A stretch of 63,343 bases of DNA from Acidobacteriota bacterium (GTDB lineage Bacteria > Acidobacteriota > Vicinamibacteria > Vicinamibacterales > 2-12-FULL-66-21), in NCBI GenBank assembly GCA_003222675.1, contig QHWT01000086.1, forward strand, positions 1 through 63,343, written 5' to 3'. The notes under the pieces were generated by a model that was not told the origin of the DNA, ran no database searches, and saw only the letters and a program-made list of their open reading frames with translations. Both the position numbers and the translations under genes were made by a program. Shown piece by piece: positions 5,345 through 20,517 of this stretch. Numbering within the stretch: the first letter of the stretch is position 1; each line of letters opens with the position of its first letter.

Positions 5345-7264
5345 ATGCACTACGGTATGACGGATCGGCAGCGACGCCGATTCAAAGTCTGGTTTTTCGA
5401 GGGTCTTCGCGAGGCCGCGCCTGGGGCCGCCGCAGGGTATCACCGGGCGCAGTGGTGGCAGGTCATGTGCCTGACGGGCGTCGATTATTTCTCGACGCTC
5501 GGTTATCAGCCCGGCATCGCATTCCTCGCGGCCGGTTTTCTCTCACCGGTTGCGACGTTCGTCCTCGTCCTGCTCACGTTGTTCGGCGCGCTGCCAATCT
5601 ACAGCCGCGTGGCCGAAGCGAGTCCCCATGGGCAAGGCAGCATTTCAATGCTCGAGGAACACCTTCCGCGCTGGAAGGGCAAGGCGTTTGTGCTGTGCCT
5701 CCTGGGCTTCGCTGCGACTGATTTCGTCATCACCATTACGCTGTCGGCCGCAGACGCGACTGCGCACATCGTAGGAAACCCGTTCTTCCCGCAGTCGCTC
5801 AACCACCCAGTGGTACTGACGCTGCTGCTGCTGGCAGGTCTCTGCGCGATCTTTCTGAAAGGTTTTGGCGAAGCAATCGGCCTGGCGGTAATCCTCGTCA
5901 TCATTTACCTCGCCTTGAACGTGGTTGTCATCGGCTACGCCTTGCTGCGCCTGCTGGACCATCCGGAGGCGTTTCCCGCGTGGCGCTCGACGCTCTACAC
6001 GCAGCACGGCAGCCCGATCATGATGATCGCGGTCGCGCTCCTGCTGTTCCCGAAGCTGGCGCTCGGCCTGTCAGGGTTCGAGACGGGCGTGGCAGTCATG
6101 CCGCTCGTTGAGGGAGATCCGAACGACGATCCTGCGCGCCCAGAGGGTCGCATCCGAAACACCAAGAAGTTACTCCGGACCGCCGCACTCATCATGAGCG
6201 TTCTCCTCATCGGGAGCGCGATCGCGACGACGCTGCTGATTCCGCCCGCCGAATTCAAGGACGGCGGTCAGGCCTCGGGGCGTGCCCTGGCGTTTCTCGC
6301 GCACAGCTACCTCGGAGAAGTGTTCGGCACCATCTACGACATCAGCACCATATCGATCCTCTGGTTTGCCGGCGCCTCGGCGATGGCGGGATTGTTGAAT
6401 CTCGTCCCCAGATACCTTCCGCGTTACGGCATGGCGCCGGAGTGGGCGAAGGCCACGCGGCCGCTCGTCCTGTTATTTGCCGGCATTACCTTCCTGATCA
6501 CCATATTGTTCGACGCGGACGTCGACGCGCAGGGAGGTGCCTACGCAACTGGCGTACTTGTCCTGATGACATCCGCCGCTGTCGCCGTCACGCTGCACGC
6601 GCGTCATCGTCGCGGCCACCAGGCCGCATACGGCTTCATCACACTCGTATTCATCTATACGACCATCCTGAACATTTTCGAGCGGCCGGAAGGTATCAAG
6701 ATCGCTTCGTGGTTCATCGCGACGATTATCTTCACGTCGCTGATTTCGCGCGTGCTGCGCTCGACGGAGCTGCGCATACATGGCGTGCAGCCCGATGCGG
6801 CTGCGTTACGATTCATTCGCGAAGCTGGCATCGCGCCGGTGCGCATCCTCGCGAACCGGCCGGACACGGGAGCGAAGGAAGAGTACGAGCACAAGCTTCG
6901 CGAGGCCATGGAATCACATCACCTGCCGCCGGAAGAGCCCATCCTGTTCCTGGAGGTTCGTCCTGGTGACGTGTCGGATTTCCGGGGAACGCTGCAGGTG
7001 ACGGGAGCAGACGTCGCGGGTCATCATGTGCTGCGCTGCACGAGCCCGGCGATTCCGAATGCAATCGCCGCGCTGCTGCTTTACATCCGGGATCAGACGG
7101 GCAAGATTCCACACGCCTATTTCGGTTGGACGGAGGGCAATCCGCTCGCATATCTGCTGAAGTTCTTGGCATTCGGCGAGGGGGACACCGCGCCCGTCAC
7201 GCGTGAAGTGCTGCGGCAGACGGAACCGAACCCGATGCGGCGGCCGCGCATACATGTCGGCTGA
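5345..7264 (+). CDS. APC-superfamily amino acid permease-like protein with soluble C-terminal domain
   Basis: About 640 residues: a cytoplasmic N-terminus, roughly 12 hydrophobic segments from [24 protein letters not shown] to about residue 470, then a hydrophilic tail of about 165 residues beginning near [13 protein letters not shown]. The membrane part resembles APC-type amino acid transporters. The tail has alternating strands and helices like a small regulatory domain, but I do not recognise it. The start at 5345, 4 bases after the symporter stop, indicates translational coupling; an alternative ATG is at 5357. The substrate is unknown. Confidence 0.8.
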
Positions 7265-7339
7265 CGGCTGGCGGTTATCGCTTGACGGTCTTGTCAGTGG
7301 CATCCACTCGGACACAATCGGCCTCCGGCCTTCGTGATT

Positions 7340-8671
7340 TCACGCCGGTCGATCCTGCGGCCGATCGCTGGTTGCGGGCAGGAGGCTGACCGCCGCCTGC
7401 TCCACGCCGTGGCCCTTCACCGCCGTCACTTCGAGCTGCAGGCGCTCGTAGCGCACGTTGTCGCCGACGCGCGGCGGCCTGCCGAGGAGCGTCAGGATCA
7501 AACCGCTGACGCTGTCGACGTCCTCATGCGCGAGCTCGAGATCGAACATTTGACCGAGCTCGTCGAGGCGCAGCGTGCCCCTGACCCGCAACCGGCCCAG
7601 CGCGTCGCGACGTGGTTGGGACGGGCCGCCGGGACCTTCCTCGATCTCTCCGACGACCTCTTCGAACACGTCTTCGAGCGTGACGACGCCGGCAGTGCCG
7701 CCATGCTCGTCGATGACCACCGCGAGTTGGGCGCGCTCTTTCCGCATGGTCGAGAGGACCGCATCGAGCCGAGCCGTCTCCGGGACTACTGGTGAATGAC
7801 GGGCGCCCGCCGCTGAGACGCTCTGGTTGTTCAGCAGCAGCCGCAGCAAGTCCTTGATGTGGTACGTGCCGACGATGTGATCGAGATCTCCTTCGTAGAT
7901 GGGATATCGCGTATGCGGCGTTCGCCCGAGAATGCCGCGCAGCTCCTCGGGGCCGGCGCCGACGGGAATGCCGGAGATGCGGACGCGCGGCACCATGACC
8001 TCTCCCGCCGTCAGATCGCCAAACTCGAAGAGCTCCTGCAGCATTTGGCCCGCTTCGGCGCGCAGCGCGCCCTGTTCTTCCGACTCCTGCACGATCAGCT
8101 GCAGCTCCTCGGACGTGTAGTACTGGTCCGCATTCTGTGCCTGGCGATTCACGCCGAGCACTCTCAGCGTCGAGGTGCCCAAGGCGTTCAACGTGACGAC
8201 GAAGGGGTAGAGCAACGTTTCGATCCACAGCATCGGCGGTGTGATCCACAGGGACATGCGCTCGGCGGACTGCAATGCGACCGACTTTGGCACCATCTCG
8301 CCAACAACGATGTGGAAGTAGGTGAGGATCGCGACAGCGGCAATGCTCGCGAAGCCGTGCGCCGCGAGCCACTGCGCCCATGTCGTCTGGCCGATCGCGC
8401 CGAGGATCCAGCCCGCGAGCACGTGCTCGCCGTACATGCCGAGTCCCAGGCTCGCGACGGTGATGCCAATCTGCGCCGTCGCAATATAGCGATCCTGCTT
8501 CTGCGGATGGCGCAACACCGCCTGGACCATGCGCGCCATTCGATCGCCTTGTGCGGCGCGCGCATCGATGGCGGCGCGCGGCGCCCCGACGATCGCAAAC
8601 TCCGCCGCGACGAACAACGCGTTCGCCAGTATCAGAACGGTGATGATGACGATCGCGGTCAGCATACTCAT
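7340..8671 (-). CDS. CNNM/HlyC-CorC family protein (DUF21, CBS pair, CorC_HlyC)
   Basis: About 443 residues. Order of parts: an N-terminal DUF21 membrane domain with 3-4 helices (from LTAIVIITVLILANALFVAAEFA, including GEMVPKS), a CBS pair (GEVMVPRVRISGIP through VVTLEDVFEEVVGEI), and a C-terminal CorC/HlyC transporter-associated domain ending in LEVTAVKGHGVEQA. Related CorB/CorC/CNNM proteins take part in Mg2+ or other divalent cation efflux. The ATG at 8671 overlaps the TGA of the upstream gene in an ATGA, so it is translationally coupled to that paralogue. The older label hemolysin is probably misleading. Confidence 0.9.
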   Translation of the reverse strand: MSMLTAIVIITVLILANALFVAAEFAIVGAPRAAIDARAAQGDRMARMVQAVLRHPQKQDRYIATAQIGITVASLGLGMYGEHVLAGWILGAIGQTTWAQWLAAHGFASIAAVAILTYFHIVVGEMVPKSVALQSAERMSLWITPPMLWIETLLYPFVVTLNALGTSTLRVLGVNRQAQNADQYYTSEELQLIVQESEEQGALRAEAGQMLQELFEFGDLTAGEVMVPRVRISGIPVGAGPEELRGILGRTPHTRYPIYEGDLDHIVGTYHIKDLLRLLLNNQSVSAAGARHSPVVPETARLDAVLSTMRKERAQLAVVIDEHGGTAGVVTLEDVFEEVVGEIEEGPGGPSQPRRDALGRLRVRGTLRLDELGQMFDLELAHEDVDSVSGLILTLLGRPPRVGDNVRYERLQLEVTAVKGHGVEQAAVSLLPATSDRPQDRPA

Positions 8672-10080: not shown

Positions 10081-10707
10081 GATTCTTGCCCTGCTGATGC
10101 TGCCGTCGCGCCAGGCCTTCGCCCAGGCGAGCGGCGCGACCGAAATCGTGCTGCGTGCAGCCAGACGCAACGATCATTGGCGGCGGATGGGGGGTCGCGA
10201 CCGATGCGGCTGCGTCGCGGGGCGGCCCTGTGGCTGCCAGATGCAGGCGCGGCGAAGCTCACCATGGCCGGCGCTAACCCGCACGGTTCGTTCGACCTCT
10301 CGTTCACGGCGAAATCGAAGACGCCTTACCGCCTCTGGATCCGCGGTCGCGCGCAGTGCGAGTACTGGGGCAACGATTCCGTGTTCGTGCAGTTCTCAGG
10401 TTCAGTGACCTCGACGGGGGCACCCATCTACCGCGTCGGCACGACAGACGCAACAGTCGTCAATCTTGACGACTGCAGCGGCTGTGGCATCTCGGGCTGG
10501 GGCTGGCAGGACAACGGCTGGAGAGTGGGCGTGCTCGGGCCGCTCGTCTAATTCGCGACGACGGGTCCGCAGCGGCTTCGTATCCAGACGCGCGAGGACG
10601 GCCTCTCGATCGATCAGATCGTACTGTCCCCGTCGCGCTACTTTTCTTCATCGCCGGGAAAGGTGAAGAACGACACGACGATCCTTACTCAGCCCTCAGG
10701 GCAATGA
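10081..10707 (+). pseudogene. Broken secreted protein with a carbohydrate-binding-like C-terminal domain
   Basis: The frame first reads a signal peptide (LALLMLPSRQAFAQASG), then shifts at least twice before the main body at 10177-10551 (LWLPDAGAAKL, RLWIRGRAQCEYWGNDSVFV, CSGCGISGWGWQDNGW). That body stops at TAA 10549-10551, but the same frame continues with LRIQTREDGLSIDQIVLSPS and ends at 10705-10707. The continuation completes a domain of the kind found at the C-terminus of secreted acidobacterial proteins, with RIQTREDG..IDQIVLSP as its signature. The TAA replaces one residue. It overlaps the convergent ADOP gene's stop. Function is unknown; carbohydrate binding is a guess from fold-like features. 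Confidence 0.65.
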
Positions 10708-13117
10708 CCGGATCGACACGCGTCGCGCGGACGCCCGGGACCGATGCGGCCGTGGCCGCTACGAAGCCGAGTACGGCGGCGACGGCGGCGAAGGTGACGG
10801 GGTCGGATGGCCGGATGCCGAAGAGCAGGTTGCGCATCAGGCCCGTCAACAGCATCGCGCCCGCGCCGCCGATCACGATGCCGGCGGCCGCGAGGACGAG
10901 CGCCTGGCCGACAACCATCGACAACACGTGAGTCCGCTGCGCGCCGAGGGCCATGCGGATGCCGATCTCCTGGGTGCGCTGCGTGACGGTGTAGCTGATC
11001 ACGCCGTAGATGCCTACCGCCGCGAGCAGCAGCGCCATGCCCGCGAAGACGGCGAGCAGCAGCATGGTGAGCCGGCGTTGCGCGACGGACACGTCGACGA
11101 CCTCGTTCATCGTGCGGACGTCAGCCGCCGCAACGTCGCTGTCGATCTGGTGCAACGCAGCTGCGGCAGCCGGCACGATCGCCTTCGCGTCCCCGGCGGT
11201 CCGGATTGCCACCGTCATGAACGGATATGCGAACCGTGCGGGCGGCCAATACGTCATTGCGCGAGGTTCGGTCTCGAGAGTCGAGTCGCGCACGTCACCC
11301 ACGACGCCGACGATCTCGTCCTCGGCCTTGTCGTTCCACCACAGGATGACTCGCTTGCCGATCGGATCTTCATTGGGGAAATGCTTGCGTGCGAGCGCCT
11401 CGCTGATGATCACGCGACGTCGGTTTGCGCCCGTATCGCGCGCGTCGAACATGCGGCCGCGAAGAAGCGGAATTCGCATGGCCTTGAAGTAGTCGTGCGT
11501 GACGACACGCACGTCAGCGACGTTTTCCTGTCCGGCGGGAGGCTTCGGTTGTCCAACGATCTCCAATGCCGTCGCAGCCCCCATGCCGTTGAGCGGAAGG
11601 AAGCTGGTGCCGCCCGTCGCCTGGACGCCGGGTAACGCGTCGAGGCGCTGAAACAGCTCATCGAAGAATGCCCGCTGCCGATCGGCCGTCTCGTATTTCG
11701 CGGTCGGAATCGTAACCTTCATCGTCACCGTGTGTGACGTGTCGAAGCCCGGATTCACGTCGAGCAGCGTCATGAAACTGCGGATCAAGAGTCCGGCGCC
11801 GACGAGCAGCACGAGTGCCAGAGCCGTCTCGACGATCACGAAGATGTTTCTCGTACGCGCGCCCCGCGCGCCAGTCCCGCTGCGTCCGCCTTCCTTGAGC
11901 GCCGCCGTCAGGCTGCCACTCGCCGACGACAAGGCCGGCACCAGGCCGAATGCGACCGCGCTCAGCATCGCGATCGCGAGCGTGAAGAACAGGACCCGCC
12001 CATCGATCGCCACCGCGTCGAGCCGCGCGATGTGCAGGCGTTCGGCAACGGCCGATCGGAGTACGGCGAGCGTCCACCACCCGAGCACGAGTCCCGCGAC
12101 GCCTCCCAGCGTGGAGAGCAGCATGCTCTCCGCGAGCAGTTGACGAACCAGCCGCCCCCGACCGGCGCCGAGCGCGGCGCGGACCGCAAGCTCTCGCTGC
12201 CGCGACGAGGCGCGGGCCAGTAGCAGGTTCGCGACGTTTGCGCACGCAATCAGGAGCACGAGCGCCACCGCGCCGAGCAGCACGAACAGCGCGGGCTTGA
12301 TATCGCCAGTGAGCTGCGTCTGGAGCGGCACGACGCGCGCCGTCCACCCGGTGTTGAAGTCCGGGAACATGCGGGTCAGTTCGGCGTGCACACGCGTCAT
12401 GTCGTCCTGCGCCTGCTGCAGCGAGACGTCGTGCTTCATCCGCGCTATCACCGTCATCCATCGGCCGCGCGGCGTGTGCGACGCCGCGTTGAATCCAATC
12501 GGCACCCAGAGATCGATGCGCGTATCGCTGCTCGTCTGGCCCGACGCGAAGATTGAAAATCCAGGCGGCATGATGCCGACAACCGTATGCGCGACGCCGC
12601 CCAGCGTGATGGTCCTGCCCAGCAGGCCAGGATCACCGCCAAACCGCTCCCGCCAGAGACGGTCGCTGATGATCGCCACGTCGACGTTCGGAGCTTCATC
12701 CTCGGTGGTGAACAAGCGTCCCCGCTCCGGTCGCACGCCGACCACCGTCAGCAGACCGCCGTTGACGTATTGCACGGGGAGCTCTTCCGGATTGCCTTGG
12801 CCGGTCAGCGTTGTCCGGAATGTCGAGATACCCGCCATCTGCTCGAAGACGCGATTCATTTCGCGCCAGTGCAGGTAATTACCTGGCGAGACGACGTTGT
12901 CTCTCTTGTCGCGCGCGATGTTAAGTTCCCAGACCACGACGAGCTTCTGGGGATCGGGATAGGGGAGCTGACGCAGCAGCAGCGTGTTGACGACGCTGAA
13001 GATCGCTGTGTTCGCGCCGATGCCGAGCGCCAGCGCGATCACTGCGACGATGGTGAAGCCCGGCGTGCGAAGCAGCAGACGGCCCGCGTAGCGCACGTCC
13101 TGCAGAAGTGAGGTCAT
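10685..13117 (-). CDS. ADOP-type ABC permease (MacB/FtsX-like)
   Basis: About 810 residues without the ADOP prefix domain. It opens with [20 protein letters not shown] and [24 protein letters not shown], followed by a large periplasmic MacB_PCD domain, a first FtsX domain ([22 protein letters not shown]), a second periplasmic domain, and a second FtsX domain ([22 protein letters not shown]) ending in [12 protein letters not shown]. These duplicated MacB-like permeases usually lack a dedicated ATPase; their substrates are unknown. The ATG at 13117 follows the previous ADOP stop by one base, so the two genes form a tight pair and may assemble together. Confidence 0.93.
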
Positions 13118-13118
13118 A

Positions 13119-15488
13119 TCATTCGCTCCGGAGGACGACGAGAGGATCGACGCGCGCGGCGCGGCGCGCCGGTCCATAACACGCCAGCAGCGTCATGACG
13201 AGCAGCGTGGCGGTGGCGCCGATGAGCGCTGCCGGATCCGCGGCGGTCACGCCGAACAGCATTCCCTGAAGGACACGCGCGACGCCCCACCAGGCGACGA
13301 GGCCAATCGCGGCGCCCGCAGTACCGAGAGCGAGCGCATGGCCCACGACGAGCTGCATGATGTCGCCAGGCCCCGCTCCTATGGCGGCGCGGATGCCGAG
13401 CTCGTGATAACGCTGCGTGACGAGGTAGGCCATGACGCCATACGTGCCTGCCGCAGCGAGCAGGATGGCGAGCAGTGCGAACGCGCCGATGAGAAACAGG
13501 TTGAAGCGACGGTCCGCCATGGACGTGGCCACGACGGTACTCATCGGCCTCACATGCGCGATAGGAATGGTGCGATCCACGCGCGCCGGCGCGGATCGTA
13601 GTTCCGCAGTAAAGGCGGCGGGCTCTCCGCTGGTGCGGACGACCACGTCCATCCACATGCGCCACCAGTTGCGCTCCTGTGCGTACGGGATGTAGAGCGC
13701 GGGCACTTCACCGGTGTCGAGCGACACGCCGCGAACGTCGGGGACCAGGCCGACAATTGTGATCCAGTCCCGGCTGCCGCTCACCCAGCGCACGCGCTGA
13801 CCGATCACGTCTGCGCCCGTGTAGTACTCGCGTGCGAATGCCTCGTTTGCGATCGCGACCGGGGTTGACGTCGCGGTGTCGGACGCGGCAAACGTGCGGC
13901 CGCGTAGCAGCGGAAGGCCAAGCGCCTTGAAGTATCCGGCGCTGATGCCGCGATAGAACACTTCAGGCTCCGTGCCCTGCGCCATGGCGCGCCCCTCGAA
14001 CGCAAGGTTGTGCATCAACGGATCGCTGCCGATCGGCATTTCCGTCACGAGGCCCACGGCGCTGACGCCGGGCGTCGATTCGAGCACGCGCTGGAGCTCG
14101 TCGAAAAAGCGGGTGCGAGCGCCGATGTCACGGTACCTGGCAGCGCTGAACTTGATGTTGCCCGTCAGCAAGTGGTCCGCCTCGAAACCGAGTGGCTGCG
14201 CGAGCAGCACCGAGAAGCTGCGGAGCAGGAGGCCACTGCCGGAGACGAGCACGAGCGCGAGGGCGATCTCGGCGATCATCAACATGGAGCGGACACGCTG
14301 GCGCGGGCTGACGCGCGCACCGCCGCGCGTGGCATCCGCGAGCGCGCCGCGGCTCGCAATGAAGGAAGGCACAACGCCAAACAGCAGACCCGTGACGATC
14401 GATGCCGCGAGCGTGAACAGCAGGACCTTGCCGTCGAGCGCTACGCGATCGACGCGCGGCAACGAGTCTGGCGCGAGGCTCGCGATCGCGCGCGTCAGCG
14501 AGTAGGCGACGGCGAGACCGAGCACACCACCCGCGCCGGCGAGGAGGAGGCTTTCACTCACCAGCTGGCGCCCAAGCCGCGCCGGACTCGCGCCGAGCGC
14601 GATACGCACCGCCATTTCCGTTCGCCGCGCCGCCGCCCGCGCGATGAGCAGGTTGGCGACGTTGGCGCAGGCGATCAGCAGCACGAATCCGACGGTCCCC
14701 AGCAGGATCCACAGCGCCGTCTGCATTGTGCCAACGAGGCTGTCATTGAGCGGCTGCAGGACGAACCGCACCTGTCGATTGGTTGCCGGATAGGCTTGTT
14801 CGAGGCGGCCCGCTAACGCGTCCATTTCTGACTGCGCCGCTGGCAACGTGAGACCTGGTTTCAAACGCAGCAGCCCGCGCAAAGTGTGCGCGCCACGCGC
14901 CTCCGCTTCCTGCGGGTTTTCCGCATAGAACGGGGCGAAGACGTCGGCCTTGTCGCCGGGAAGCTCGAATCCGCTCGCGACGATGCCGAGAAGCTGGTAG
15001 GTCGTGCCGTTGAAGGACACCGAGCGTCCGACGGCGTCTGGGCTTCCGCCGAGACGTGTGCGCCAGAAGCGCTCGCTGACGACAACGACATGTGGCGATC
15101 CGGCGGCCTGATCGCGCTCGTCGATCAAGCGGCCGAGCCGTGGGCGGGCGCCGAGTTGTTGAAACAGCCCGCCGGTGATGAACGCGCCGTCAGTCCGCTC
15201 GGGGACGTCGCCTGTGTCGAAGTCGAAGAGTTGCGGCCGATAGCCCGCCACGCTGCTGAAGCTGCGCGCCTGTGCTGCCCAATCCCGCATATCGGGAAAC
15301 GAGCTGCCGCGGCGCACGCGCACCAGTTCCTCCGCGCGCGGGTATGGCAAAGGCTCGAGGAGAACGGCATTCACGACGCTGAACATGGCCGTGTTCGCGC
15401 CTATGCCCAGCGCCAGGGTCAGAAGAACGACCGCCGTGAGCGCAGGCGTTTTGACAAACGCCCGGAGCGCATAGCGCAGATCGGACAT
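13119..15488 (-). CDS. ADOP-type ABC permease (MacB/FtsX-like), first of a pair
   Basis: About 789 residues starting [20 protein letters not shown] with [24 protein letters not shown], then MacB_PCD, FtsX ([22 protein letters not shown]), second PCD and FtsX ([22 protein letters not shown]), ending [10 protein letters not shown]. The ATG at 15488 is chosen because a GAGGA ribosome binding site lies 6 bases upstream; the longer open frame to 15704 covers a repeat-like intergenic stretch. The stop precedes the next ADOP start by one base. It follows the HEAT/M56 cluster in the same direction, but about 230 bases of repeat DNA separate them. Confidence 0.93.
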
Positions 15489-15717: not shown

Positions 15718-16473
15718 CTATCCTCCGATAGCGCCCAACGCCCACGCTGCCTGCCGCCGCACGCGCGCCTCGGTGTCCTTGAGCGCCTTTGCGAGCGCCG
15801 GTGCTGCACGGCGGTCGCCCAGCGCACCGAGCGCCCACGCCGCCTGCTCGCGCACCTGCGCCGCTTGATCGGTGAGCGTGTTCATCAGTGGTTCGACGGC
15901 GCGCCGATCGCCGATGGCGCCAAGCGCCCACGCGACCTGCTCGCGCACGCCGGCGTCGGTATCTTTCAGCGCCTCGATCAGTGCAGGAACCGACTCGGAT
16001 GCGTCGAGCGCGCCGAGCGCCCATGCGCCCCGGCGCCTGACATTGGCTTCCGTGTCGCGCAGCGTCGCCGCGAGCAGCGGCGCCGCGTTGTGATTTCCGA
16101 GCGCGCCGAGTGCCCACGCCGCGTTACCGCGCGCGACCCAGACGGGGCCTTTGAGCGCCCGCGTCAACGGCTCGTACGCGGCCGAGCCGATCGCCACGAG
16201 TGCGGAGGCCGCCTGTTCGCCCGGGGTGGTCGTGTCCTGCTGGTGACCCCACCGCCAGGTTCGTTCGCTGCAGATCGCCGGATCGACGGGAGAGGCGTCG
16301 CCCAGGAGAACCACGAGCTGCGGGATCACGTCGTGCGCGTGATCACCGAGTTCCCGGAGATCGCACGCGGCGCGCGTCCGCGCGGCAGGATCGGAGGATT
16401 TCAATGCCGCAGTCGCCGCGCTGAGATCGACCTGGACGATCGACAGCAGCGCGATTAAGACGAGCGCGAACAT
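15718..16473 (-). CDS. Secreted HEAT-repeat protein
   Basis: 251 residues: a signal peptide (MFALVLIALLSIVQVDLSA), a variable N-terminal part with two cysteines (about residues 38 and 73), then five to six HEAT repeats of 31 residues built on WALGALGDRRAAPALAKALKDTEARVRRQAA. HEAT arrays form curved solenoids that bind other proteins. Each repeat carries WALGA at the same place, so the array is very regular and recently amplified. Its start overlaps the stop of the preceding HEAT gene by one base (TGATG), so the two are translationally coupled within the BlaI/M56 cluster. Confidence 0.85.
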   Translation of the reverse strand: MFALVLIALLSIVQVDLSAATAALKSSDPAARTRAACDLRELGDHAHDVIPQLVVLLGDASPVDPAICSERTWRWGHQQDTTTPGEQAASALVAIGSAAYEPLTRALKGPVWVARGNAAWALGALGNHNAAPLLAATLRDTEANVRRRGAWALGALDASESVPALIEALKDTDAGVREQVAWALGAIGDRRAVEPLMNTLTDQAAQVREQAAWALGALGDRRAAPALAKALKDTEARVRRQAAWALGAIGG

Positions 16474-17090
16474 CAGCGGAACCTCATGGGTCGCGGATTG
16501 GGCCGCGGATTGGGATGTGGATGCGGGTGCGGATGTGGGTTGGGATGGGGCAACGCATGAGCATCGCCGCCGCCGTCGATCTCTGCGATGGCCGCCGCGG
16601 CCGCACGGCGAATCGACGGCTCCGAATCTTTCAGCGCGGCCACCAGCGCATCGAGTGCGCGGCTGTCACCGATCTCCCCAAGCGCTTCGACGACGTGCTT
16701 CCGGACCGTCGCATTCGTGTCCGTCGCCGCCGCAATCAGCGCGTCGACCGCACCTTTGTCGCCGATCTCGCCAAGAGCGGAGGCGACCCGCGCGCGAACA
16801 TCGGCATCCGCGTCCTTCAAGGCGGCGGCGAGGGCAGGCACCGCGCGCGCGTTGCCGATTTCAGCGAGCGCGGCCGCGACCTGACGCCGGACGCCGGCGT
16901 CCGTATCCTTCAGCGCGCCGATTAAGGCGTCGATGCGGGCCTCGCTGCCGCTCTGTTGCGCGACCACGCCGCCGTGCCACGCGGACGACCATTCGAGCGG
17001 CGGGTGCAGGAAGATCGCGGCCGTGCCCAGGAAGATCGCACTCGACCGCAGCAGCGTGCGAAAGAACACATGGAGGGGACTCATGCTCAT
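16473..17090 (-). CDS. Secreted HEAT-repeat protein with His/Pro-rich tail
   Basis: 205 residues: signal or membrane segment (FFRTLLRSSAIFLGTAAIFL), four HEAT repeats (ALAEIGNARAVPALAAALKDAD and variants) and a C-terminal tail of about 30 residues made of alternating Pro with His, Asn or Arg. The His/Pro tail could bind divalent metal or act as a rigid spacer. Start options are the ATG at 17090 and a second at 17084. The stop overlaps the next HEAT gene by one base. A perfect stem-loop lies between this gene and the upstream M56-HEAT gene. Confidence 0.82.
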   Translation of the reverse strand: MSMSPLHVFFRTLLRSSAIFLGTAAIFLHPPLEWSSAWHGGVVAQQSGSEARIDALIGALKDTDAGVRRQVAAALAEIGNARAVPALAAALKDADADVRARVASALGEIGDKGAVDALIAAATDTNATVRKHVVEALGEIGDSRALDALVAALKDSEPSIRRAAAAAIAEIDGGGDAHALPHPNPHPHPHPHPNPRPNPRPMRFR

Positions 17091-17134
17091 CTCTCCTGCT
17101 AAGAAAACAGCATCGCCAGGAACACCACCGGCCG

Positions 17135-17157
17135 GGCGATCGCACGATGCGATCGCC
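17135..17157. promoter_or_regulatory. Perfect 10-bp stem-loop between M56-HEAT and HEAT genes
   Basis: Arms GGCGATCGCA (17135-17144) and TGCGATCGCC (17148-17157) flank the 3-base loop CGA. Each arm contains the octamer GCGATCGC. It lies in the 84-base gap inside an otherwise tightly packed cluster. Without a U-run it is not a standard terminator. It could protect or process the mRNA so that the HEAT genes are expressed at a different level from the protease gene. Confidence 0.5.
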
Positions 17158-17174
17158 AGGTGCGGGTGTGGGCT

Positions 17175-19313
17175 TTATCGGATTTGTCCGAGCGCGAACG
17201 CGGCCTGCTGGCGAACCGACGCGTTCGTATCCTTCAATGCGGTGGTCAGACCGTCGATCGCGCGCGGATCACGGATCTGGCCGAGCGCGAACACCGCCTG
17301 TTCGCGCACGTCGGCGTTCGCATCCTTCAGCGCGATGACGAGCGCTTCGACGGCCTTCGCGTCACGAAGTTGTCCAAGCGCGAACGCGGCCTGCTCGCGC
17401 ACGTCAGCCTTTTCATCCTTCAGGGCCGAGATGAGAGGCTCGACGGAGCGCCGATCGCGAATCTGTCCAAGCGCGAATGCCGCCTGCTCGCGCACATCCG
17501 CGTTCGTATCGTGGAGCGCCGAGGTGAGCGCGTCTATCCCGGCAGGGTCGCGCAGCTGACCGAGCGCAAACACCGCCTGCTCGCGGACGTCGGCGTCTGT
17601 ATCTTTCACCGCGCCGATCAGCGGCTCGACGGCGCGCCGATCGCGCATCTGGCCGAGACCGAACGCCGCCTGCTCGCGCACGTCTGCGCTGGCATCCTTC
17701 AGTGCCGTCATCAGCGGCTCGAAGATGCTCGGATCCCGCAATTGCACCAGCGCGTGCAGCGCGGTCTCGCGTACCTCTTTATCGGTGTCCTTGAGCGCTG
17801 CCGTCAACGCCGCAACCGTCCGCGGGTCGGCGATCGATTTCGGCTCCTTGGCATCCTGCGCTGATCCGCGTGCGTACGGCACCGCGTGCTCAACGATCGA
17901 CCCGACCATTCCTTGCAGCGCGCCCTGCGTGATGCCCTGCGCAACGCTCTGGGTCACGCCTTGCGTAACGCTCCGGGTAACACCTTGCGTGACGCCTTGG
18001 CTGACTCCCTGCGTGGCCGACTGCACGAGTCCCTGCACGGCCGCATTCACCGCTTCGTCTGCGGCTGCCTGCCTGGGGTACTGCTCGACAGGCCGCTCCG
18101 GCCGTGCCTGTGCCGGCGGCTGCCGCGGTGACGGCGCCGGGGCAGAAGCGGGAGACGGGATCGCCATCGCGACGGCAGGCGCGATGTTCGTCCGCGCCGC
18201 ATCGATTCGCGTGACGGCCTCCTTCGCCCACGGCTGAACGGACGCGACGGGAACGAGCATCAAGGCAAAGACGCTCGTCGTGAGTGCCGCGCGCATTCGC
18301 GTCAACCCGCCTCGGGGCACGCTCGGATCGAGGATCGCCATCAGGCGTCCTTCGAGCTGCGATCGGTGCGCCATGGCCAACGTCGCGCCGGCGAGCACCA
18401 CGGGGAAACGGCCCGCGCGCATGACGCGCGCAATCTCGAGCAGCTGGTCCGCGTAATCGGGGCCGCGGGTTCCGGAGACGAGGACGAGATCGTCGCAGGC
18501 GCGCTCGCGCTCCGTGCGGAGGCGCTTGACTGCAATCCACGCAAGCGGATTGAACCAGTAGGCCGCGCACGCGATCTGCGCGACGAGATGCGTGAGGCAA
18601 TCACGCCGCTTTACGTGCGCGAGCTCGTGCAGGACGACGATGCGAAGGCGGTCGGCTGGCCAGCCGTCCGCATCCACCGGTATGAGCACGGACGGACGGA
18701 AGACTCCCCACGCCATCGGCATGGATCCGATGCGCGTTCTGACGAATCGCACCTGCGGAATACCGAGGCCGCGCGCGAGCGACTGGGCCTCGGCCAGCCA
18801 CGGCGCATCGGTGATGACCGGCGTCTGCCGCGACATCCATTGCACGGCCGCGAGACCGAGCAACATGCGGAAGAGAATCGCGAATGCGCCGCACGCCCAG
18901 ATCGTCAGCAGGATCGTGGTCCAGGACAGCGTGCGGAGACTTTCGCCCCATGCCGGAAGCCACGAGATTTGTGGCGAAGAGGATCCGCGTGGCGACGACC
19001 CGGTCGATGCTGTTGACCGAGAGACCGAGCTGCGCGGCGTTCTAACCATGTCGCTGCCTTGAGGCGGAACGACACCATCGGCAGTGGAAACCACTGCGGA
19101 ATCCTGAATGCGAACGAGCGGCACTTCCCATCGTGGCAGCGCAAGCGCAAGTGCGGGCGCGGCCAGCGCGCCGACAAGACCCAGCGTCCAGACAAGGTGA
19201 CGCGCGGACGCGGACGCGCGCCGCAGCGCCGCCGCGATGAGCGCTGTCGCTCCCAGTACGATTGACGCCTTGACGAGCGCGTCGACAACGATCGGCGTTT
19301 CCATGAGGCCCAT
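17175..19313 (-). CDS. BlaR1/MecR1-type M56 metallopeptidase fused to seven HEAT repeats
   Basis: 712 residues. The N-terminal 360 residues form an integral membrane M56 peptidase: RHLVWTLGL helix at about 39, zinc motif HELAH at 229-233 and the third-ligand region ERERACDD at about 268-275. A Pro/Ala-rich linker and a stretch with a Gln-Gly-(Val/Ile)-Thr four-residue rhythm (about 431-468) lead into seven near-identical 31-residue HEAT repeats (499-712). In BlaR1 the sensor is a penicillin-binding domain; here HEAT repeats take its place. The gene begins 3 bases after the BlaI stop, so the protease and the repressor form a pair. An alternative start is ATG 19304. Confidence 0.92.
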   Translation of the reverse strand: MGLMETPIVVDALVKASIVLGATALIAAALRRASASARHLVWTLGLVGALAAPALALALPRWEVPLVRIQDSAVVSTADGVVPPQGSDMVRTPRSSVSRSTASTGSSPRGSSSPQISWLPAWGESLRTLSWTTILLTIWACGAFAILFRMLLGLAAVQWMSRQTPVITDAPWLAEAQSLARGLGIPQVRFVRTRIGSMPMAWGVFRPSVLIPVDADGWPADRLRIVVLHELAHVKRRDCLTHLVAQIACAAYWFNPLAWIAVKRLRTERERACDDLVLVSGTRGPDYADQLLEIARVMRAGRFPVVLAGATLAMAHRSQLEGRLMAILDPSVPRGGLTRMRAALTTSVFALMLVPVASVQPWAKEAVTRIDAARTNIAPAVAMAIPSPASAPAPSPRQPPAQARPERPVEQYPRQAAADEAVNAAVQGLVQSATQGVSQGVTQGVTRSVTQGVTQSVAQGITQGALQGMVGSIVEHAVPYARGSAQDAKEPKSIADPRTVAALTAALKDTDKEVRETALHALVQLRDPSIFEPLMTALKDASADVREQAAFGLGQMRDRRAVEPLIGAVKDTDADVREQAVFALGQLRDPAGIDALTSALHDTNADVREQAAFALGQIRDRRSVEPLISALKDEKADVREQAAFALGQLRDAKAVEALVIALKDANADVREQAVFALGQIRDPRAIDGLTTALKDTNASVRQQAAFALGQIR

Positions 19314-19316
19314 CTC

Positions 19317-19703
19317 TTACGCTCCGCTCTTCCGCGCCCCGTCGATCAACCGGGCGAGCCGATCGAGCTCTGCGGACGAAAGCTTCGTCGATGACTCGTC
19401 GAGCAGCGCCGAGATCGCCTGTTCGGCTGAGCCGTCAAAAAATGTCTGGAGAATGTGCCGCAGGGCCGACCGCTTCGCATTGTCGCGCGCCAGTGTTGGC
19501 AGGTATACGTATCGCGGCCCGTCCTGTTCGTGCCGCACGTGCCCCTTCTCCTCGAGAATCCTGAGCAGCGCCCGGACGGCCGAATAGCTCGGCGGCTCAG
19601 GCAGCGCGGTCTGCACTTCGGCCGCGGTCGATCGGCCGTTCATATAAAGGATGTCGAGAATCTGCCGCTCGCGGCGGCTCAAATCACGATGAGCAATGGT
19701 CAT
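19317..19703 (-). CDS. BlaI/MecI-family transcriptional repressor
   Basis: About 128 residues from ATG 19703 (open frame extends to 19730). A winged helix with LSRRERQILDILYMNGRSTAAEVQ and PPSYSAVRALLRILEEKGHVRHE is typical of BlaI/MecI, followed by a dimerising tail with FFDGSAEQAISALLDESS. BlaI dimers repress their own operon until the M56 partner cleaves them. The M56-HEAT gene follows by 3 bases. A perfect inverted repeat overlapping the -10 box upstream is the likely operator. Confidence 0.93.
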   Translation of the reverse strand: MTIAHRDLSRRERQILDILYMNGRSTAAEVQTALPEPPSYSAVRALLRILEEKGHVRHEQDGPRYVYLPTLARDNAKRSALRHILQTFFDGSAEQAISALLDESSTKLSSAELDRLARLIDGARKSGA

Positions 19704-19756
19704 TGGCGTCCCCGGTCCCGGTTCACACAAGGCTTAGACGGCAGCGGGGCCCAAAA

Positions 19757-19794
19757 GGTGCTACGAAAATAGCACCAGGGGAAAAAATTAGCAA
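19757..19794 (-). promoter_or_regulatory. Promoter with BlaI-type operator for the BlaI/M56-HEAT operon
   Basis: Minus strand: -35 TTGCTA (19789-19794), 17-base spacer, -10 TATTTT (19766-19771). A perfect inverted repeat GGTGCTA-CGAAAA-TAGCACC (19757-19776) covers the -10 element, so a bound dimer would block polymerase. The site differs from the TACA/TGTA dyad of staphylococcal BlaI but has similar overall geometry. The leader to ATG 19703 is about 60 bases. Confidence 0.6.
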
Positions 19795-20076: not shown

Positions 20077-20517
20077 ATGTGGAAGGAATTTCGGGAATTC
20101 GCCGCGCGCGGGAACGTGATCGACCTCGCCGTCGCCGTCGTCATCGGCGCCGCGTTCGGAAAGATCATCACGTCGCTCGTCAACGACATCGTCATGCCTC
20201 CGATTGGCATGGCGCTCGGGCGTGTTGACTTCAAGAACCTGTTCGTCACGCTCACCGGCCAGCAGTTCGCCTCGCTGGCCGACGCGCAGAAAGCGGGGGC
20301 GCCGACCATAAATTACGGCATCTTCCTGAACACGATTCTCGAATTCCTGATCGTGGCGTTCGTAGTCTTTCTGCTCGTGCGTCAGATCAACCGCATGAAG
20401 CAGCCCGTGCCGGCGGCGCCTGAAAAGCCGGTCCGCGACTGCCCGTTCTGCGCCACTCGCATTCCCGCGGCAGCGACGCGGTGCCCGGCGTGCACGTCGG
20501 AACTCGCGACACGATAG
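20077..20517 (+). CDS. mscL: Large-conductance mechanosensitive channel MscL with C-terminal zinc ribbon
   Basis: 146 residues. The N-terminal helix [21 protein letters not shown] with [22 protein letters not shown] is the MscL pore helix; a periplasmic loop and the second helix ([24 protein letters not shown]) follow. MscL opens under membrane tension and releases osmolytes during osmotic down-shock. In place of the usual short C-terminal bundle there is a zinc ribbon, Cys 122, 125, 136 and 139 (CPFC...CPAC), seen in some MscL proteins and perhaps a redox- or zinc-dependent lid. It is a single gene downstream of a pseudogene. Confidence 0.95.

Follow-up and report, generated by a model that had tools for sequence, protein, structure and literature searches.

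A BlaI–M56 protease cluster of an Acidobacteriota bacterium with a HEAT solenoid in place of the penicillin-binding sensor

The window analysed here is the 63,343-nucleotide stretch (positions 1 to 63,343) of contig QHWT01000086.1 from an Acidobacteriota bacterium (assembly GCA_003222675.1), and our subject is a cluster of four minus-strand genes in which a BlaI-type repressor and an M56 membrane protease are accompanied by HEAT-repeat proteins. The cluster consists of a BlaI-type winged-helix repressor of 128 amino acids (19317..19703; PF03965, 8e-28), an M56 metalloprotease of 712 amino acids with a C-terminal HEAT solenoid (17175..19313; PF05569, 1.2e-27; HEAT_2, 5.3e-45) and two separate HEAT proteins, HEAT1 of 205 amino acids with four repeats (16473..17090; HEAT_2, 5.6e-29) and HEAT2 of 251 amino acids with six repeats (15718..16473; HEAT_2, 8.7e-35). 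The common strand and the gaps of 3, 84 and -1 bases, first described in a reading of the sequence without database searches (the sequence-only reading), proved exact on re-checking. The whole 7.16-Mb genome yields 50 HEAT_2 matches, many of them sharing reading frames, and HEAT genes are thus too uncommon in it for three consecutive ones to be likely by chance. M56/BlaI pairs are widespread and, to our knowledge, which signals they answer beyond beta-lactams is an open question in the field.

The M56 match covers residues 10-327 of the protease and includes the HELAH motif at residues 229-233 that had been picked out from the sequence; HExxH is invariant in 7/7 aligned M56 proteins. Seven near-identical 31-residue repeats had also been described at the C terminus, and their number and length stand (residues 496-712), but pairwise identity is 45-81% with a mean of 62%, for which "near-identical" is too strong. 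In the structure model that the sequence-only reading had proposed as a check, residues 5-321 have the fold of Staphylococcus aureus BlaR1 (8ext_A; Z 18.9, root-mean-square deviation 3.4 over 242 residues, comprising transmembrane segments 1-3 (TM1-3) and the protease), to which a sequence profile also leads (4.6e-10), and residues 499-712 have that of the alphaRep binder 4xl5 (Z 29.8, 52% identity, 214 residues); the Foldseek matches listed were filled by the HEAT part, and those listed by VIA-align were mostly to it. This part matches HEAT_2 and HEAT_PBS, and its predicted local distance difference test (pLDDT) values are mostly 94-98 over the repeats. Helices of the model at residues ~5-29, 35-58, 131-163 and 339-358 coincide with four membrane segments marked by hydropathy, and residues 359-495 form a linker. 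Between the last membrane helix and the repeats, a four-residue period (GVTQGVTQ; GGVSGGIAGGV) was observed at residues 420-470 of the window protein and in the linkers of L079 and L080. The NCBIfam model blaR1_generic is limited to residues 131-328, at 86 bits against a cut-off of 400, and, as had been noted from the sequence, the Pfam matches, listed up to E 0.01, include no penicillin-binding or transpeptidase domain. A phmmer search with BlaI matched no solved structure. By analogy with BlaR1 (reviewed in PMC7593790), the protease of the M56-HEAT protein probably faces the cytoplasm, with its HEAT part outside. A BlaR1/BlaI-type unit with a C-terminal, probably extracytoplasmic, HEAT solenoid is supported by these data.

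HEAT1 has a conserved N terminus (MSPLxVFxRTLLxSSA) and a tail of His-, Asn- and Arg-Pro dipeptides, and has counterparts in L079, L080 and L081. HEAT2 has an N-terminal module of its own, with two cysteines (C37 and C68) invariant in 5/5 aligned rows, carries Trp at position 25 in five of its six repeats and was modelled with a pLDDT of 92. The repeat signatures differ by gene, being AFALGQ in the protease, AWALGA in HEAT2 and ALGEIG in HEAT1. Both proteins had been called secreted: this agrees with HEAT2, whose N terminus is clearly hydrophobic in the window, but not with HEAT1, which falls below the hydropathy threshold there. A hydrophobic N-terminal stretch above the threshold was found for HEAT2 or its counterpart in 9/13 loci (in L079 and L215 with a start further downstream than that of the longest frame), and for HEAT1 in 2/4, both of them relatives. 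Because HEAT1 of the window does not pass, secretion is something we infer, and HEAT2, together with HEAT1 in this family, is probably exported.

The predicted BlaI operator is a perfect inverted repeat (GGTGCTA-TTTTCG-TAGCACC in the minus-strand reading; 19757..19776) 53 bases upstream of the BlaI start. A second, half-kept copy, TGCTAATTTTTTCCCC (19778..19793, minus strand), which the sequence-only reading had overlooked, sits 19 bp upstream of the first; it matches the core at 9 or more of 12 bases and is at position -90 relative to BlaI. The exact GGTGCTA-N6-TAGCACC site is unique in the 7.16-Mb genome: for the 14-base operator we found one exact copy, none with one mismatch and 128 with up to three mismatches, against 931 for a reversed control. 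Its core TGCTA-N6-TAGCA has one genomic copy against 27 for the control, and a stricter AT-rich form has none in the genome. The search for other genes under this operator, suggested in the sequence-only reading, thus gave no second target at exact or one-mismatch strictness. That reading had also made its case depend on an operator upstream of orthologous BlaI genes, and a generalized TGCTAA-N4-TTAGCA-like site, with the consensus derived from the same loci and a score of at least 9/12 within 150 bases upstream of BlaI, is present in 23/23 HEAT-type loci (L082, with a truncated HEAT part, is counted among them, and L108 is not). Two or more such sites occur in 16 of the 23, and per locus at most 3.5% of 200 single-base shuffles score as well as the real upstream region. 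The paralogues in the window's own genome (L039-L046) have operator scores of 6-9. Upstream of BlaI in L042, L088, L089 and L090, we observed a palindrome of the CGCGAATA type. Judged by its distribution, the predicted operator is a mark of a BlaI lineage and of autoregulation and not a HEAT feature. A promoter scan revealed no sigma-70-like site (0.6 expected by chance), terminator-like sites numbered 3 against 3.6 expected by chance, and Rfam gave zero matches at gathering scores.

Conservation of the neighbourhood was assessed mainly in 80 named loci, of 216, that were fetched with the M56 domain alone; they comprise 8 HEAT-fused and 72 non-fused M56 loci, and BlaI was found in 76/80. A separate HEAT gene lies within 3 kb in 4/8 of the fused and 0/72 of the non-fused loci (Fisher 4.4e-5), so that, as the sequence-only reading required, HEAT genes do adjoin the fused protease in relatives. 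The corresponding figures in a tree sample of 63 scored rows are 15/23 and 0/40; this sample mixes loci fetched via M56 with loci fetched via HEAT2 and is thereby biased towards partners, and the non-fused rows in it were hand-picked, so that the 80-locus count is the fairer one. BlaI is directly upstream of M56 in 22/23 HEAT-fused loci, and the remaining one, L108, is cut by a contig end. We also searched 193 genomes of the class with a profile of the N-terminal part of HEAT2 (5 rows): 192/193 genomes match, mostly via plain HEAT repeats, and the N-terminal module itself is matched at more than 110 bits in 15/193, with weaker matches at ~50 bits in G069 and G076 among the matches listed. All five profile rows adjoin BlaI-M56-HEAT, as do six of the ten HEAT2 genes outside the profile (G176, G175, G010, G006, G180 and G148), and the G001 locus is cut by a contig end. 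The gene layout differs in G020, a genome of the same order, where HEAT2 is located upstream of BlaI. Among the named loci, the BlaI-M56-HEAT arrangement with a HEAT partner is found in L099 and L101, both from Acidobacteriota, and in L128, from a Gemmatimonadetes metagenome-assembled genome, the HEAT partner of L128 having no score on the HEAT2 module. The association of HEAT with M56 recurs in several families. Because the solenoid and the secreted-type partners are kept together in many relatives, the set probably senses something other than an antibiotic.

The lack of a penicillin-binding sensor is not special to this locus but ordinary here, since the 8 scanned of the 10 other M56 proteins of the genome also have no such domain. 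Their C termini carry DUF3738 (L039), CarboxypepD_reg with TonB_C (L040) or TonB_C (L044); in L041, L042, L043, L045 and L046 no further named domain exceeds the cut-off except a weak M48 overlap, and some of these have repeats. As the M56 proteins of the genome carry such differing C termini, the C-terminal module seems to be exchanged often. Among the arrays observed, that of the M56 protein L041 (4351-7305, same genome) is of the form SSDYELAxLLxxI and has no Pfam match. Repeats of ~29 residues (RDHGVTPEYVREMxxLGY) form the M56 C terminus in L042, L086, L088, L089 and L090; in L042 and L086, the two that were scanned, these repeats match no named Pfam family, and their bearers group in the M56 tree with a support of 80. 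This tree contains 24 HEAT-type rows (L138 and L176, probably duplicates of L085 and L213, were excluded, and L082, its end cut off, is unscored) and 40 non-fused rows, namely 25 of the 72 named loci and 15 loci of the window's own genome and relatives. A single origin of all HEAT-fused M56 proteins was rejected, as forcing the 23 into one clade costs 236 log units in a quick tree (approximately unbiased test, p 5e-88). The tree needs nine gain or loss changes of the HEAT fusion, of which three are forced by firm branches, 24 of its 61 inner branches being open; on this phylogeny, HEAT fusion has been gained or lost several times. These results suggest repeated exchange of the sensor part among BlaR1-like proteases in evolution, as in two-component kinases.

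The relationship to alphaReps allows the binding face of the solenoid to be read by position. In alphaReps, the concave surface carries the six varied positions 18, 19, 22, 23, 26 and 30 (PMC3754942), which are 17, 18, 21, 22, 25 and 29 in the register used here; the same paper describes a pair of alphaReps that associate via their concave faces. With exposed and core positions assigned from the repeat consensus, the binding-face residues of the M56-HEAT proteins are more alike between repeats than the other exposed positions (0.41 vs 0.275; Wilcoxon 1.5e-4, 23 related proteins), and the same holds for HEAT2 (0.36 vs 0.25; Wilcoxon 0.0056, 17 related proteins). In the window protease, the six binding positions agree in 72% of repeat pairs. 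Because the binding-face residues are alike in most repeats, a periodic ligand (a polymer, an extended peptide or a HEAT solenoid) is likelier than a single globular epitope, and the constant face suggests either such a ligand or solenoid-solenoid stacking. The solenoid shares its fold with the alphaRep protein binders, including the pair that associate with one another, and it is therefore plausible that HEAT proteins bind each other or a different protein.

Position 25 of this face is aromatic in 96/173 M56 repeats and 102/136 HEAT2 repeats, as scored with a repeat model trained on the window's own repeats, and is aromatic in at least half of the repeats in 15/23 M56 and 15/17 HEAT2 proteins; the control from the same genome is small (2/11 repeats, in 3 passing proteins of 18 stretches fetched). 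Pro-dipeptide rods of at least 8 residues occur in 14/23 HEAT-fused M56 proteins (excluding the copy L176), against 7/72 non-fused named proteins, a set from different lineages, and 23/404 called genes; within the named set alone, the figures are 2/8 and 7/72. X-Pro rods, including (TP)n, are found on the protease, HEAT1 or HEAT2 in many ladder-bearing loci, but the two features are not always paired: L099, L101 and L213 show an aromatic ladder but no rods, and L218 and L221 show rods but no ladder. Long X-Pro dipeptide tails of the (NP)n, (HP)n and (WP)n types were seen on the protease and/or a HEAT partner in L083, L210, L211, L215, L217, L220 and L128, and on HEAT1 of the window.

We propose a repressor/membrane-protease unit that works like BlaR1-BlaI, with the solenoid in place of the penicillin-binding sensor, an explanation that we judge to be slightly better than evenly probable. 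BlaI would bind one or two TGCTAA-N4-TTAGCA sites and repress its own operon, as the conserved sites suggest, and the four membrane helices of M56 would place its zinc-protease domain towards the cytoplasm and the seven HEAT repeats outside, as fold and hydropathy indicate. HEAT2, and in this family HEAT1, probably exported, would dock on the M56 solenoid or have a ligand in common with it. When the ligand binds or the partner is lost, the protease would change state, BlaI would be cut, and the HEAT proteins, perhaps with the permeases encoded downstream, would be made. Several observations weigh against this explanation. Many non-HEAT BlaI genes also carry the TGCTAA-N4-TTAGCA site, and because of this, and because the consensus came from the same loci, the site supports control by BlaI and not the HEAT idea. 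A HEAT partner is not obligatory, since 8/23 HEAT-fused M56 genes lack one within 3 kb (for two of the eight, L108 and L220, a contig end is near), and HEAT2 genes stand away from any M56 in G090, G046 and G089 (3 of the 10 outside the profile), as does the weaker HEAT2 match of G069 (L223). The loci are related, and the locus counts are therefore not independent; firm branches hold only three independent pairs, too few for a test. The similarity between protease and HEAT2 repeats of the same locus is small (0.377, against 0.355 across loci). HEAT1 and the M56 proteins of L080, L108, L128, L215, L217 and L218 have no uniform binding face, the linker of the M56-HEAT protein is modelled with low confidence, and the export of HEAT1 and HEAT2 is read solely from hydropathy (2/4 and 9/13 pass).

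The genes on either side of the cluster bear on what it may do. Downstream lie two minus-strand genes for ADOP (MacB-like) permeases, likewise overlooked in the sequence-only reading, the first of 789 amino acids with the chosen start at 15488 (13119..15488; TIGR03434, 7.4e-261, 867.7 bits) and the second with its start taken at 13117 (10685..13117; TIGR03434, 4.6e-295, 980.9 bits; MacB_PCD and FtsX), against a cut-off of 622.3 bits. Upstream, mscL (20077..20517, plus strand; PF01741, 1.6e-42) diverges from BlaI, with its start 300 bases from the operator. It does so in 4/5 same-family loci with upstream sequence (the window, L079, L080 and L081); the divergent gene of L082 gave no mscL match. 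In L079 and L080, the space between mscL and BlaI holds the operators and is short, and shared control of mscL is therefore possible in these two loci. In L226, the gene diverging from BlaI-M56-HEAT (6995-7780) matches EfeU/Ftr1 iron permeases below the cut-offs, and similar upstream sequence occurs in L178.

ADOP genes adjoin the HEAT genes in 6/6 same-family loci with downstream sequence (the window, L079, L080, L081, L209 and L222, the M56 gene itself lying beyond the contig end in the last two), at a distance of 19 bases in L079 and L081, and also follow in L215 and L178 of other lineages. With a solenoid fold known as a protein-binding scaffold, this arrangement would suit HEAT solenoids acting as scaffolds between the protease and the neighbouring ADOP/MacB-like permeases, the protease reading the state of the transporter and not a free ligand, much as BceS reads that of BceAB. 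However, ten HEAT-type loci with room available have no ADOP match directly downstream (L084, L099, L101, L128, L150, L210, L211, L213, L218 and L221), the gap in the window is 229 bases and the ADOP reading frames of L080 are broken. ADOP-type genes are moreover very common in this genome, where all 150 candidates scored, of 301, match MacB_PCD, and we consider transporter coupling unlikely. The HEAT proteins might instead be the output: BlaI would control structural proteins of the envelope, and the HEAT tail would serve in M56 only to position the protease; HEAT2 genes apart from M56 in 3/15 genomes (G090, G046 and G089) would fit this, and the proline rods of 14/23 HEAT-fused proteases would suit reach through the periplasm. 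HEAT neighbours were nevertheless seen only where the protease itself carries HEAT (4/8 vs 0/72), and a uniform binding face is present on many M56-HEAT and HEAT2 proteins, which makes this explanation quite unlikely.

The evolutionary data permit a further alternative, in which HEAT arrays spread by recombination into adjacent genes without any joint function. Protease and HEAT2 repeats are indeed slightly more alike within a locus than across loci (permutation p 1e-4, 13 loci), and the fusion changed at least three times on firm branches; yet the three genes of the window keep distinct repeat signatures, HEAT2 has a non-repeat N-terminal module with its two cysteines invariant in 5/5, and the association recurs in several families, so that we regard mere shuffling as very improbable. 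A separate and, in our estimation, improbable reading is a solenoid-on-solenoid switch in the periplasm that responds to a repeating polymer or to a proline-rich rod. An X-Pro rod on one protein could run along the aromatic ladder of a second protein until envelope strain or a competing polymer displaces it, leading to BlaI cleavage, and the divergent mscL and the ADOP permeases would fit a role in envelope stress.

The unit with a HEAT sensor, which we prefer, is best understood by comparison with known systems. With BlaR1-BlaI and MecR1-MecI of Staphylococcus, it has in common the BlaI-type repressor, the adjacent M56 protease, the BlaR1 fold over TM1-3 and the protease, and an inverted repeat upstream of the repressor gene (a predicted site here). 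In contrast, the sensor of BlaR1 and MecR1 is a class-D-beta-lactamase-like domain, in whose place the window protease has a C-terminal HEAT solenoid, and, unlike the Staphylococcus BlaR1-BlaI locus, the window has separate HEAT partner genes and ADOP permease genes downstream. A role in beta-lactam sensing was set aside because the M56-HEAT protein has no penicillin-binding domain; no beta-lactamase search was made. Judged by anatomy, the predicted system works like BlaR1-BlaI and, by the domain test, is not a beta-lactam sensor. Other M56 proteins of this genome and of relatives, with DUF3738/TIGR03435, TonB_C, CarboxypepD_reg or RDHGV-type C termini, likewise have BlaI adjacent as a rule and an exchangeable C-terminal module, and those scanned have no penicillin-binding domain either, but they have neither HEAT repeats nor a HEAT gene within 3 kb (0/72; 0/40 in the tree sample). 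We found no paper linking HEAT repeats with M56, BlaR1 or BlaI in the open text of PubMed Central, subscription papers being outside this scope. On the conserved gene order, the putative HEAT sensor, together with its HEAT partner gene, represents a conserved variant of the BlaR1-BlaI type. The solenoid shares with the artificial alphaRep binders, which derive from thermostable HEAT-like repeats, its 31-residue repeats and its fold (52% identity, Z 29.8). The six binding positions are variable by design in alphaReps (PMC3754942), whereas the repeats of the window protease agree there in 72% of pairs. With a sensor fold whose binding face is understood residue by residue from alphaReps, a neighbouring gene for the likely partner and a defined operator, the signal, the binding of the partner and the cleavage of the repressor can each be tested singly.

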